NCBI GenBank assembly: GCA_026417415.1
Contig: JAOADG010000001.1
Span: 1-64,000, forward strand
Direction: 5' to 3'
Length of the DNA stretch: 64,000 nt
From: a bacterium
GTDB lineage: Bacteria; Electryoneota; JAOADG01
Positions 57,801 to 63,587 of the stretch are shown here, piece by piece. A program made the position numbers and the translations under genes. Within the stretch, counting starts at the first letter, position 1. Each line of letters opens with the position of its first letter. Under the pieces are notes generated by a model. That model was not told where the DNA came from, searched no databases, and saw only the letters and a program-made list of their open reading frames with translations.

Positions 57801-58388
57801 CTAAAACATTCCTCCTAACCATTCAAATAAAAGAAAATCAAATCTTGAAATCAACAGCGATAATCTACCCATCACTGTAGTACCATATGCTGCACCAAAG
57901 CTTAGCATTAAAAAACCTATCCCGATTTTTGAAACTTTTGATAAATGTTTATGCTCTAAAGCAAAAAAGAAATAAGTTAAAGAAGTTAAAGTTCCCAGAA
58001 TAATCAGCAAGTTGTTTATTGAAGTCGGTGATAGCATTGTACCCTGAATTTGTGCGATTAAAAAACCTTGTGTGTACTGAATCATATTTAATGCTGCACC
58101 AACGCCGATATAAATTGCGATAGGGTATCGTGCGATCCATTGATATTTTGGAATAAGACGTAGCAATAAAAGGAGGCCTAATACACCTGGTATTAGAGGT
58201 AGATAATCACCCAAAAGAACTTTATCAACTACATTCGGTTTTACAACACTGTGCCATTGTACAGCAATATAATACCCTGTAGAAATTCCAATAAAGATAT
58301 GTTCTGCAAGACGGTAAATCGGATTATCTCGATATAGAAAACTAAAAATCGCAAGTGTAAAAAATGCTGCAACCCAAGTACCGATCAT
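57801..58388 (-). CDS. Polytopic membrane protein, fourth gene of the DUF6754-linked operon
   Basis: I do not recognise this 195-residue protein. It has about six hydrophobic segments: residues 3-18, 28-45, 60-80, 85-105, 125-145 and 155-175. Charged loops are short and it has no signal peptide. AEHIFIGISTGYYIAVQWHSVV and FGAAYGTTVMGRLSLLISRFDFL are the most characteristic stretches. Its ATG overlaps the stop of the upstream gene by 4 bp (ATGA). It is last in a tight minus-strand operon of membrane proteins. Confidence 0.65.
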   Translation of the reverse strand: MIGTWVAAFFTLAIFSFLYRDNPIYRLAEHIFIGISTGYYIAVQWHSVVKPNVVDKVLLGDYLPLIPGVLGLLLLLRLIPKYQWIARYPIAIYIGVGAALNMIQYTQGFLIAQIQGTMLSPTSINNLLIILGTLTSLTYFFFALEHKHLSKVSKIGIGFLMLSFGAAYGTTVMGRLSLLISRFDFLLFEWLGGMF

Positions 58389-59245
58389 TTTTTAATTCGC
58401 ATCGCTGAAATGTTTTTAAGAATTATATTTCGAACAACGGATACATTCCCTAAAAAAATGAAAAAGATAATTACTAAATGAGCCACAGATTGTGCATCCA
58501 TTCCACGAGTGGCTTTACCTTTGGTACCAACAAGTTTTTCATATTCTGCAGCACCTTTCAATCCACCTAAAAGTCCAACCAATTGTCCTGTTTGGACAAA
58601 TGCTTCATATTGTGGAATACTTACTGCAGTAACACCTGCGGCTAACGGTACACCAAATTGTGCTAGACCTATTGTTATGTAAAAATCTACTGTTGCTCCA
58701 TGGGCTACATCCACCATAAATGATAAGTGACGATAACTTGGAAACCTTGAAAAAATTTCCATTTCTTGAGTCGAATTCCCACGAAAATCTTTAGGAAAGG
58801 ATGTTGTCCATGAACTTCCTAAAGCCATTAATAAAACATCATTTCCAGGTTTAAAGCCGAGATTGACGTAATGTTTGCCATATTCTCGTTGAAATTTTGC
58901 TGCCAATGGTTCTAATACACGTTCTGCGATTGGACCAGTTTCGGGAAAATTGGTGTAAACAATTAGTACTTTACCTGACTTCATTACATGATGACATAAT
59001 GAAATAGCCATCGGTAAACATTCTGGAATAGAGGACGGATCAAAATCAAAAGCGATTAAAACGGCTGAAGTATCTGGGAGGTTTTCTATACGATCATAAA
59101 CTGCTTTTACATGTTTTGTTACGGTAAGTGGTAAATTGAGAGGAAACAATAAAGGAAAAAGTATGGATAATGATACAAATAAATACACCCAACGGCGATC
59201 AAGTTTTCCTAATGCTTCCCAAATTGGTTTTACTTTCCTAACCAA
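58385..59245 (-). CDS. Membrane-anchored extracytoplasmic-domain protein, third gene of the DUF6754-linked operon
   Basis: The 286-residue protein has one N-terminal span (about 19-38) and one C-terminal span (about 258-275) around a soluble domain. In that domain SAVLIAFDFDPSSIPECLPMAISLCHHVMKSGKVLIVYTNF and YVNLGFKPGNDVLLMALGSSW look like a conserved alpha/beta fold. No known catalytic motif is visible. The start is TTG (no ATG nearby in frame) after a GGGA sequence, and the gene overlaps the preceding one by 16 bp. It pairs with the DUF6754-like protein, which has a similar soluble-domain layout. Confidence 0.65.
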   Translation of the reverse strand: MVRKVKPIWEALGKLDRRWVYLFVSLSILFPLLFPLNLPLTVTKHVKAVYDRIENLPDTSAVLIAFDFDPSSIPECLPMAISLCHHVMKSGKVLIVYTNFPETGPIAERVLEPLAAKFQREYGKHYVNLGFKPGNDVLLMALGSSWTTSFPKDFRGNSTQEMEIFSRFPSYRHLSFMVDVAHGATVDFYITIGLAQFGVPLAAGVTAVSIPQYEAFVQTGQLVGLLGGLKGAAEYEKLVGTKGKATRGMDAQSVAHLVIIFFIFLGNVSVVRNIILKNISAMRIKK

Positions 59246-59847
59246 GATCGCTCAATCCCTAAAAGTGTTTTAAGACCTGTTGCGATAAGACCTAATGCAG
59301 CACCAATCGTCAATGCACGCTGTGCTGCTAAAGAAGGAACGCTTAGGATCCATTGTGAAATTTCTGGAAATTTAGACCACAAAATTTCACCAATAGGCAC
59401 CTTTCCAATCATTACCAATACTGCTGCAACAAACAGCAATGTGGCGTGAAGATTGCGAACACGAAAGGCACGATAACTTGCTGATGAAACATAAAATGCA
59501 AGTAATGCAAACATTGTTGATTGCATCGGATTTTGAACATTTTTAAACAACCATTGAAAAGCACCATTCGGTCCGTAATCTACAAAAATACCTAGTGTAA
59601 CCATAAGTAATAAACAAACAACTAATACCAAGCTATAATACCATCCATCATATTTACGTTGAATGCGTTGAAGGTGTGATAAAAAAATGCTAATTCCTCC
59701 CATTAAATAACTAAAACTTAATAGAATGATTACCCAATCCATCATTCCATTTTGAAGTTTCGTAAAAAGAGGAATACGGAAAAAGAATTCAACCAAAATG
59801 ATTAAACCAGCAATTCCACAAATGATAATCGCTGTAAAACGTAGCAT
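59230..59847 (-). CDS. Six-span membrane protein, second gene of the DUF6754-linked operon
   Basis: The 205-residue protein begins at ATG with MLRFTAIIICGIAGLIILVEFF. Six hydrophobic segments follow (about 1-25, 36-58, 68-93, 107-128, 133-153 and 175-195). NPMQSTMFALLAFYVSSASYRAFRVR is its most distinctive stretch. I do not recognise a family. The start lies 1 bp after the stop of the first gene of the operon. The longer frame to 59901 lies inside that gene and is not favoured. Confidence 0.65.
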   Translation of the reverse strand: MLRFTAIIICGIAGLIILVEFFFRIPLFTKLQNGMMDWVIILLSFSYLMGGISIFLSHLQRIQRKYDGWYYSLVLVVCLLLMVTLGIFVDYGPNGAFQWLFKNVQNPMQSTMFALLAFYVSSASYRAFRVRNLHATLLFVAAVLVMIGKVPIGEILWSKFPEISQWILSVPSLAAQRALTIGAALGLIATGLKTLLGIERSWLGK

Positions 59848-59848
59848 G

Positions 59849-60793
59849 TTATTCCGTTTGAAACCAGTGGATAAAATCAGTCCAACCAAACCACGCTGCA
59901 AGAGTTCCTAAAACGATAAGAAGTCCAAACAGCGCCTTTGACCAATCTTGACCTAATATAGTACCTAATAAAATGGGTTCTCTAGATAAATAAGCACTAG
60001 CAGCGAATAGTTCTTCACCGATTAGGGTATAATCACAAGATGCAAGAAAAAAAGGAAGTTGGTGTGAATTCGCAGTACCTGCTATTTGTATAGCACCAGT
60101 AGTATTGCCTGCTTCAGAAATTACTAATGATTCTGCATAAAATTCACCTATAAAAAAATGTGCAGCAGTTTTTACACGAACCATATGCCCGGTGATTGCT
60201 GCAGCAAAAGCAAATTGGTTATCTGTGATGTATTGAACTCGATCAGGGGAGAATAAATCGGGTCGTCCAGCTGTCAAATAACTTTGACGAAGAATTTCTT
60301 GTGAAGTACTCATCAATAAAGGAAAACGTGTCATGACATCTAAATCAACTTCGTATGTCGCACATTCATATCCAACTTTAGAAAGAATAGCAATCCCTGC
60401 TAATGTTTGAATACGATCAACATCCATACTTCCGGGTACAAATAGAACTGGACGACCCATTTCTGCTGCACGTCCCACTGCTTCATCAATTGCATCAAGG
60501 CCAGCAATTTTTCTTAGTGTTAAGGAGTGATTACGTTTTGCTAAAAACAAAAACGTTAAAACAAGCGCCGAAATGATTATCAAAAAGATGAAAACATTCA
60601 GTCGCTCTGTTTTAAAAAGTGGTTGTATTTCAGGTTTTGATAAATGTACTTTGGAAGGTAAACTTTGTTGGTTATTCACTGCTATTTTTAAGGAATCAAT
60701 CTGTACCTTTGTAGAGATTGAATTTCCAAAGCTAATTTGGAATGTACAAAAAATTACTCCAATGATGAATAGGGATAGAGATAATGATTTCAT
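59849..60793 (-). CDS. DUF6754-like membrane protein, first gene of the operon
   Basis: The 314-residue protein has a signal-like N-terminus (MKSLSLSLFIIGVIFCTFQ), a span at about 66-86, a soluble domain (about 95-285) and a second span (about 290-307). The soluble domain has LDAIDEAVGRAAEMGRPVLFVPGSMDVDRIQTLAGIAIL, a QEILRQSYLTAGRPD block, GNTTGAIQIAGTA and SCDYTLIGEELFAASAYLSREP. From memory these match the DUF6754 family, whose function is unknown to me. The high conservation of Gly, Asp and Glu positions hints at a binding site. It is transcribed divergently from RNase D. Confidence 0.7.
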   Translation of the reverse strand: MKSLSLSLFIIGVIFCTFQISFGNSISTKVQIDSLKIAVNNQQSLPSKVHLSKPEIQPLFKTERLNVFIFLIIISALVLTFLFLAKRNHSLTLRKIAGLDAIDEAVGRAAEMGRPVLFVPGSMDVDRIQTLAGIAILSKVGYECATYEVDLDVMTRFPLLMSTSQEILRQSYLTAGRPDLFSPDRVQYITDNQFAFAAAITGHMVRVKTAAHFFIGEFYAESLVISEAGNTTGAIQIAGTANSHQLPFFLASCDYTLIGEELFAASAYLSREPILLGTILGQDWSKALFGLLIVLGTLAAWFGWTDFIHWFQTE

Positions 60794-62027: not shown

Positions 62028-62403
62028 AAATTTTCTTTTTCTCTTTTTGGCATTCCTTATAGGAGTATCGTTTTATAGTTGTAAAACAAGTAAAAAAGAA
62101 ACTCAATTGTTAAAAAAAGATTGCCAAGAAATCATACAACAAGCACAAGAATGGTATGGTGGATTAGACACGCAAATAGCAATGCAGTATGGCTATTCAA
62201 AATTAACCTTTAGGGAACTCGGAAAATTACCGGAAACATTATCCAATAACGATTTGACGTGGACGAATCAAAACGGTTCATATACGATATCCGACAGAAC
62301 CTCTGATTCGTTTACATTAACTGCTGTAGGAATGGAAGAAGAAAAAGTACAATATTTCGTAGTAAAAAACGATCCTGTAAAAGAGCCCAAGATTTTTCGT
62401 TAA
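62017..62403 (+). CDS. Small lipoprotein of unknown function
   Basis: The 128-residue protein has a lipoprotein signal (MVNKNFLFLFLAFLIGVSFYSC) with lipobox SFYSC. The mature domain is soluble with WYGGLDTQIAMQYGYSKLTFRELGKLPETL and no known motif. AAGGAG is 8 nt before the ATG. The stop overlaps the convergent stop of kbl by 2 bp. Confidence 0.65.
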   Translation: MVNKNFLFLFLAFLIGVSFYSCKTSKKETQLLKKDCQEIIQQAQEWYGGLDTQIAMQYGYSKLTFRELGKLPETLSNNDLTWTNQNGSYTISDRTSDSFTLTAVGMEEEKVQYFVVKNDPVKEPKIFR

Positions 62404-63587
62404 TGTATAATTCCTAACTTTTTACCAATCTGTGTAAATGCATCTACAGCGAATAAAATATCTTCTGTTGTATGAATTGCAGAAATTTGAACCCTTATTC
62501 TTTCTTGCCCTTTTGCGACAACCGGATAAAAGAAACCAATCACATAGATTCCTTTTTCAAATAGTTCATTAGACATTGCTTGTGCAAGTTGAGCATCTTT
62601 TAACAATACTGGTACAATTGGAGTTGTGCCACGTACATCAAATCCTGCTTCTTTCATTTTCTTTCGGAATAACTCTGTATTTTCTTTTAGTCGGGTGCGA
62701 AGTTCAGGCATTGTTTTGACTAATTGAAACGCTTCAATGCTAGCTGCTACAATTACAGGTGGAAGTGAATTTGAGAACAGGTAGGGTCGTGATTTTTGTC
62801 TTAACCATTCAATAATTTCTTTTTTACCTGTTGTAAATCCACCATTTGCTCCACCCAAAGCTTTCCCTAAAGTTGAAGTGATAATATCTACCTTTTGCAA
62901 AACACCAGTTTCTTCACATGATCCACGTCCTGTTGGACCAATAACACCACTGCCATGGCAATCATCTACCATTACTAACGCTTCGTATTTTTCCGCTAAG
63001 GCACAAATTTCTTGGAGCGGGGCTATATCGCCATCCATTGAAAATACACCATCCGTTACAATTATTTTCTTTTTAGCGGAATGGTTTTGTTTCAATAATT
63101 CCTCAAGATGGTTCATTTCTGCATGACGATACCGAAATCTTTTTGCTTTACTCAAACGAATTCCATCAATAATGCTTGCATGATTTAATTCATCTGAGAA
63201 AATGCAATCATCTTCATTAAATAAAGGTTCAAAAACACCACCGTTCGCATCAAAACAAGCAGCATAAAGGATCGTATCTTCGGTCTGAAAAAAGTTGGCA
63301 ATTACTTGTTCAAGTTCTTTATGGATTTCTAAAGTACCGCAAATAAAACGTACACTAGATAAACCGAAGCCCCATCGTTCCAAAGCAAGTTTTGCTGCTT
63401 CAATAATTTTAGGATGATTGGCTAAGCCCAAATAGTTATTCGCACAAAAATTAAGTAATGTTTTCCCATTGACTTGAATGGTATTTCCTTGCGGGGTAGA
63501 GAGAACTCTTTCACTTTTATATAGACCCTTCTCAAATAAACCAAGTAGTTCATTTTGAAGTAATTTTTGAATTTGTTCTGATACCAT
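62400..63587 (-). CDS. kbl: 2-amino-3-ketobutyrate CoA ligase (glycine C-acetyltransferase)
   Basis: The 395-residue alpha-oxoamine synthase has LLNFCANNYLGLANHPK, SVRFICGTLEIHKELE, ACFDANGGVFEPLF, the PLP lysine in TSTLGKALGGANGG, and VMVDDCHGSGVIGPTGRG. These match Kbl better than BioF. It cleaves 2-amino-3-ketobutyrate with CoA to glycine and acetyl-CoA in threonine breakdown. No threonine dehydrogenase gene lies next to it in the window. It is divergent from the acetyl-CoA synthetase gene. Confidence 0.92.
   Translation of the reverse strand: MVSEQIQKLLQNELLGLFEKGLYKSERVLSTPQGNTIQVNGKTLLNFCANNYLGLANHPKIIEAAKLALERWGFGLSSVRFICGTLEIHKELEQVIANFFQTEDTILYAACFDANGGVFEPLFNEDDCIFSDELNHASIIDGIRLSKAKRFRYRHAEMNHLEELLKQNHSAKKKIIVTDGVFSMDGDIAPLQEICALAEKYEALVMVDDCHGSGVIGPTGRGSCEETGVLQKVDIITSTLGKALGGANGGFTTGKKEIIEWLRQKSRPYLFSNSLPPVIVAASIEAFQLVKTMPELRTRLKENTELFRKKMKEAGFDVRGTTPIVPVLLKDAQLAQAMSNELFEKGIYVIGFFYPVVAKGQERIRVQISAIHTTEDILFAVDAFTQIGKKLGIIH

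Follow-up and report, generated by a model that had tools for sequence, protein, structure and literature searches.

The window, by which the whole stretch of 64,000 nucleotides analyzed here is meant, belongs to a genome of the phylum Electryoneota (2.2 Mb in 40 contigs). Near its end, four genes, referred to as A, B, C and D, are packed on the minus strand, and the coordinates of their open reading frames agree with the tight spacing reported in the first-pass annotation of this DNA, with a 1-bp gap between A and B, a 16-bp overlap between B and C, and a 4-bp overlap between C and D. The genes and their soluble domains are the following:

59849..60793, minus strand: gene A, DUF6754 protein (314 aa), with a signal-like first helix, a TM helix (residues 62-86), a Rossmann-like domain and a C-terminal TM helix
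59981..60505, minus strand: Rossmann-like domain of A (residues 97-271), putatively on the cytoplasmic side
59230..59847, minus strand: gene B, polytopic protein (205 aa) of no known family, six predicted TM helices, N terminus predicted inside
58385..59245, minus strand: gene C (286 aa, TTG start), of no known family, with an N-terminal TM helix, a Rossmann-like domain, putatively periplasmic, and a C-terminal TM helix
58526..59116, minus strand: Rossmann-like domain of C (residues 44-240), with a conserved GAAEYE motif at its end
57801..58388, minus strand: gene D, polytopic protein (195 aa) of no known family, about six predicted TM helices

The start of gene B was placed at an ATG, codon 19 of a 223-aa open reading frame that remains open up to a TTG at position 59901. 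Genes adjoining the block on both sides are found on the opposite strand, and the block therefore constitutes a self-contained unit. In the same genome, two similar PLP-dependent genes (KBL/AONS-type by eye; window positions 62400-63587 and G000:C26 65754-66998) flank an acyl-CoA synthetase-like gene and an acyl-carrier-protein-like gene.

In order to assign the four proteins to families, profile searches were combined with searches of structures and literature. As had been proposed from the sequence, A is DUF6754-like, being a full-length member of Pfam PF20539 (355 bits against a cut-off of 27, positions 5-256 of 257), while B, C and D matched no Pfam or NCBIfam family, and no characterised transporter or enzyme family was matched in the profile searches. 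B matched the MrpF, TMD0 and ABC2 membrane families weakly, as D did holin-like ones; these matches were taken as noise. Searches of PDB sequences returned only FN3-containing chains with the A profile and nothing useful with those of C, D and c1 (described below), and Foldseek found no match at E<=0.001 for the models of A and C. In the literature searched, with subscription papers outside it, there was no mention of DUF6754, PF20539 or DUF1890 and, in keeping with the earlier note, no described role for a DUF6754 protein; judged from that literature, the system as a whole, including the further genes described below, appears undescribed.

Alignment-averaged hydropathy detected three hydrophobic segments in A (the first signal-like), six in B, two in C and about six in D. 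The AlphaFold models (pLDDT 87.5 for A and 95.2 for C) each contain one Rossmann-like alpha/beta domain, set between membrane helices in A and flanked by two membrane helices in C, so that hydropathy and models agree with the original description of two polytopic proteins and two subunits with soluble domains. The proposed resemblance between these two domains held at the level of the fold, which is Rossmann-like in both models, but not at that of sequence: homology between A and C was unsupported (hhalign probability of 1.8% between profiles). In structure, the C domain came closest to MT0777 (1kjn; Z 11.0, rmsd 3.1 over 138 residues, 12% identity), followed by TrkA/SDR/CODH-epsilon structures (Z 9-10), and the A domain to Sir2 (Z 11.7), with many others beside; in both cases the matches are generic Rossmann-like ones. 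Invariant polar residues were numerous in the A domain (E111, Q193, R206, E221, E227, Q236, T240, Q245, D254, E260 and E261), and in the models the invariant residues of A and C would mostly occupy loops after strands, like those of ligand-binding clefts. Conserved residues were also found in B (R144 and R147, predicted cytoplasmic, in the numbering of the 223-aa frame), in the C-terminal TM helix of C (Q252, H256 and N267) and in D (D21, N22, E29, R87 and R175). Positive-charge bias puts both predicted ends of B inside, and the same kind of bias, with positive charges after the TM helix of A, suggests that the A domain faces the cytoplasm and the C domain the periplasm; the two domains would thus probably lie on opposite sides of the membrane. 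Longer homologues of A carry an FN3 domain ahead of the TM helix, presumably periplasmic, which is missing from the A protein of the window.

An alignment-based scan recovered at least 80 loci and confirmed at least 577 relatives, while a single-sequence scan of genome contigs with the A protein of the window found none. Beyond Electryoneota, relatives of A were present in Latescibacterota, WOR-3/Stahlbacteria, Zixibacteria, Neomarinimicrobiota, Cloacimonadota, Fermentibacteria, Eisenbacteria, Coatesbacteria and Planctomycetota. For 86 A genes the available downstream sequence was 4 kb or longer (a few loci representing the same contig reached twice); B, C and D followed on the same strand within 4 kb in 74 of these, and in the order B-C-D in 72. 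Most exceptions came from one Electryoneota family whose A-D genes are dispersed, with others interspersed. The same four genes in the same order in distant phyla are more than chance, and the conserved gene set is well supported. Neither of the two outcomes named in the first-pass annotation as refuting, a match to a characterised transporter or enzyme family and a lack of conservation of the four genes as a set, was thus observed. Within Electryoneota, A was detected in 16 of 36 genomes and D in 15, every one of them also containing A. Pairwise distances of the four subunits were correlated (r 0.66-0.81, against permutation maxima of 0.10-0.18), as would be expected for co-inherited partners, though shared ancestry contributes to these values.

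The window genome has three DUF6754 genes, each the first of a complete A-B-C-D cassette (the window, locus L004 on contig C20, and locus L005 on contig C37), and identity between the paralogues and the copies in the window is 31-47%. Three cassettes were also found in a second genome of the same family (G023), and the cassette at locus L044 shares 65-73% identity with that of the window across all four genes. The third cassette of the window genome (L005:2245-9479, G000:C37) lies directly downstream of an HdrCBA-MvhDGA-like run and a hydrogenase maturation protease gene. This link was rejected as incidental because hydrogenase genes are absent beside the orthologous cassette of the sister genome.

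Clustering of neighbours revealed three further genes recurrently located upstream of A, named c2 (23 loci), c1 (26 loci) and c0 (27 loci), and the order c2-c1-c0-A-B-C-D was observed in many phyla. The c2 product is a small protein of about 110 aa. The c1 product (about 620 aa) is a cytoplasmic ASKHA ATPase of the MutL family, matching PF13941 over its full length (417.7 bits, cut-off 27); it scored 221.9 bits against NCBIfam GlmL, whose equivalog cut-off is 475, and was also below the Or-4 and TIGR01319 cut-offs. The c0 product (about 375 aa) is taken to be a cytoplasmic, adaptor-like protein. It combines a barrel-sandwich hybrid domain with a KOW motif and a further alpha/beta region, and weak matches, below curated cut-offs where shown, were obtained to Biotin_lipoyl (20 of 24 members), RnfC_N (16 of 24, best E 1.2e-6) and NqrA_N. 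Fusions of MutL with a c0-like barrel-sandwich domain (939-968 aa; L194:4957-7863, L195:4322-7171 and L196:6006-8825) occur in three genomes that also hold separate c1 and c0 genes. In Fermentibacteria and in one WOR-3 genome, c2-c1 has genes of the glycine cleavage system (GcvP/GcvH/GcvT by eye) next to it (upstream of c2 at L078, L080, L083, L097 and L101; L214:4644-6077).

The co-occurrence of A and c0 was evaluated in two phyla. Both genes were present in 15 of 36 Electryoneota genomes and both absent from 19, with one genome containing only A and one only c0; MutL was found in 14, 13 of them in common with A. In Planctomycetota (98 genomes), the corresponding figures were 51 with both, 44 with neither, two with A only and one with c0 only (Fisher p 3e-24, relatedness ignored). 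A test of A against c0 restricted to families f5 and f6 gave p 0.07. Elsewhere, c0 and MutL were both present in all 21 further ABCD genomes. Two planctomycete genomes, each a single contig of 7.7-7.8 Mb, contain the full c2-c1-c0-A-B-C-D run. The A-B-C-D set is not absolute, since two other planctomycetes have only c0-A-B and c0-A within the stretch examined, and no other gene of the module was seen close by; the planctomycete with just c0-A, whose genome is a single contig, suggests that c0 has A as its partner. A c0 gene is present in the window genome (G000:C33, 53% identical), yet c1 was not found there by MutL family profile and alignment searches, despite the three cassettes; in another genome with ABCD (G029), neither c0 nor c1 was found. 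The ATPase is therefore not always needed. Most genomes have one c0 and one c1 together with one to several ABCD cassettes, so that several ABCD complexes probably have one ATPase/adaptor pair in common. The additional cassettes, the c2/c1/c0 set and the probable location of the two domains on opposite membrane sides had all been overlooked in the earlier reading.

With regard to the genomic context, genes of the module have ExbB/TolQ-like genes in their vicinity in WOR-3, Fermentibacteria, an FCB bin, Gimesia and two Zixibacteria, where the ExbB/TolQ-like genes were followed by others reading, by eye, as the rest of a Tol-Pal cluster. In one Electryoneota family, a gene for a barrel-like protein of about 314 aa, a candidate for the outer membrane, lies between A and B (L034:6353-7297, L032:8049-8993 and L038:9523-10470). 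As a set of cases rather than a statistical test against random loci, these neighbours point to the envelope. Other neighbours were also recorded. At five WOR-3 loci (L053, L055, L060, L064 and L117), five conserved small genes lie between D and ExbB, including DUF4388, probable roadblock-like and small membrane proteins, and in several Electryoneota a gene weakly similar to deoxyhypusine synthase or an ArgZ-like Rossmann domain precedes A (L034:3718-4689, L032:1264-2229). An ABC ATPase (cluster c13) was found near the cassette in 6 loci only, the recurrent operon having none.

Based on these results, we tentatively favor, at clearly less than even confidence, the view that A-D form one ligand-binding complex of the inner membrane, which acts in envelope transport and has the services of a shared ATPase and adaptor. 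The four subunits would assemble as a single complex, in which the A domain may bind a ligand in the cytoplasm and offer the docking site for c0, the C domain may bind a ligand in the periplasm, and B and D may make the path through the membrane; c1, acting through c0, would drive or reset the complex with ATP, and one c0/c1 pair would probably serve several ABCD complexes that differ in specificity. The most likely job of such a complex is transport across the inner membrane, controlled by a ligand and supporting the outer envelope. Against transport stand the lack of a substrate and of similarity to transporter families, and the coupling to ATP is one that we infer. Of the membrane complex or transporter with two receptor-like subunits suggested at first, the single conserved module was retained, and the transporter and receptor roles are putative.

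A two-sided sensory complex, with C sensing a periplasmic and A a cytoplasmic ligand, c0 and c1 relaying the signal, and B and D being structural, would also suit the ligand-binding-like domain on each face, the occurrence of several paralogous cassettes in a genome and the putative periplasmic FN3 domain of long A proteins. We regard this as unlikely, given that no kinase, cyclase, GGDEF or regulator gene recurs in the operon itself across phyla and that two highly conserved polytopic subunits exceed the needs of a sensor. That ABCD is a channel or transporter which RCK-like Rossmann domains gate with no need of c1 seems quite unlikely: the folds of both A (Z 9-10) and C (Z 8.7-10.5) match RCK/TrkA structures, among others, and the window genome has ABCD with no c1 detected, but SDR, Sir2 and CODH-epsilon folds score equally well, the RCK likeness being at the fold level only and common to other Rossmann folds. 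Moreover, no pore or selectivity motif was seen, and C is probably periplasmic, which RCK domains are not.

The resemblance of c0 to RnfC_N and NqrA_N, the presence of several membrane subunits, and the cassette directly behind Hdr/NiFe-hydrogenase genes in the window genome raise the idea of an ion-translocating, energy-converting complex, Rnf- or NQR-like, with c0 as its cytoplasmic barrel-sandwich subunit. This redox reading loses weight because conserved cysteines for Fe-S centers are missing (a single conserved cysteine in A, none in the other three subunits) and because the sister genome lacks the hydrogenase neighborhood, and we consider it very unlikely. No RnfC Fe-S cysteine motif was found in c0, whose only conserved cysteine column was at 16 of 24, and the RnfA/D/E and NqrB/D/E families were absent from the Pfam families listed for 46 D members and from the 25 most frequent of 73 weak families of 49 B members. 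Highly improbable, in turn, is a membrane-associated chaperone system, tethered via ABCD, for a cobalamin-dependent or other carrier-domain enzyme. Known members of Pfam MutL, to which c1 belongs, serve glutamate and ornithine mutases, and glycine cleavage genes adjoin c2-c1 in the genomes mentioned above; however, c1 is far under the GlmL and Or-4 cut-offs, no mutase recurs among the clustered neighbours, and four membrane proteins would be left with no role.

A broader proposal, though doubtful at present, is that the FCB group and Planctomycetota possess an ATP-dependent envelope machine of a new class, in which a shared ASKHA ATPase and a barrel-sandwich adaptor would drive one or several four-subunit complexes bearing Rossmann-like ligand domains on either face of the inner membrane. 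A conserved seven-part system in about ten phylum-level groups would be a missing piece of envelope biology for a large part of these bacteria, with three of its four membrane genes (B, C and D) belonging to no recognisable family, and work next to a membrane complex would give the GlmL-type ASKHA ATPases of the GlmL/MutL family a new role. The system becomes testable because full copies are present in single-contig planctomycete genomes, from a phylum with cultured members.

Regarding known systems, A belongs to PF20539, a domain of unknown function for which no description of B, C and D or of c0, c1 and c2 as partners was found. The methanogen protein MT0777 is soluble and of 152 aa, and its likeness to the C domain is barely above that of generic Rossmann folds. 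RnfC and NqrA share the barrel-sandwich hybrid domain with c0, as reflected in the weak matches, but c0 differs in lacking an Fe-S motif, in its KOW motif and extra alpha/beta region, and in having partners unrelated to Rnf or NQR. The accessory ATPase of glutamate mutase, GlmL/MutL (PF13941), is matched by c1 over the full length, while c1 has an extra C-terminal region and is linked to membrane genes and c0. ECF transporters offer an analogy in the way of working only, namely one shared energy module for several membrane complexes per genome; in place of the ABC ATPases, EcfT and S component of those transporters, the ABCD system would rely on an ASKHA-type ATPase.
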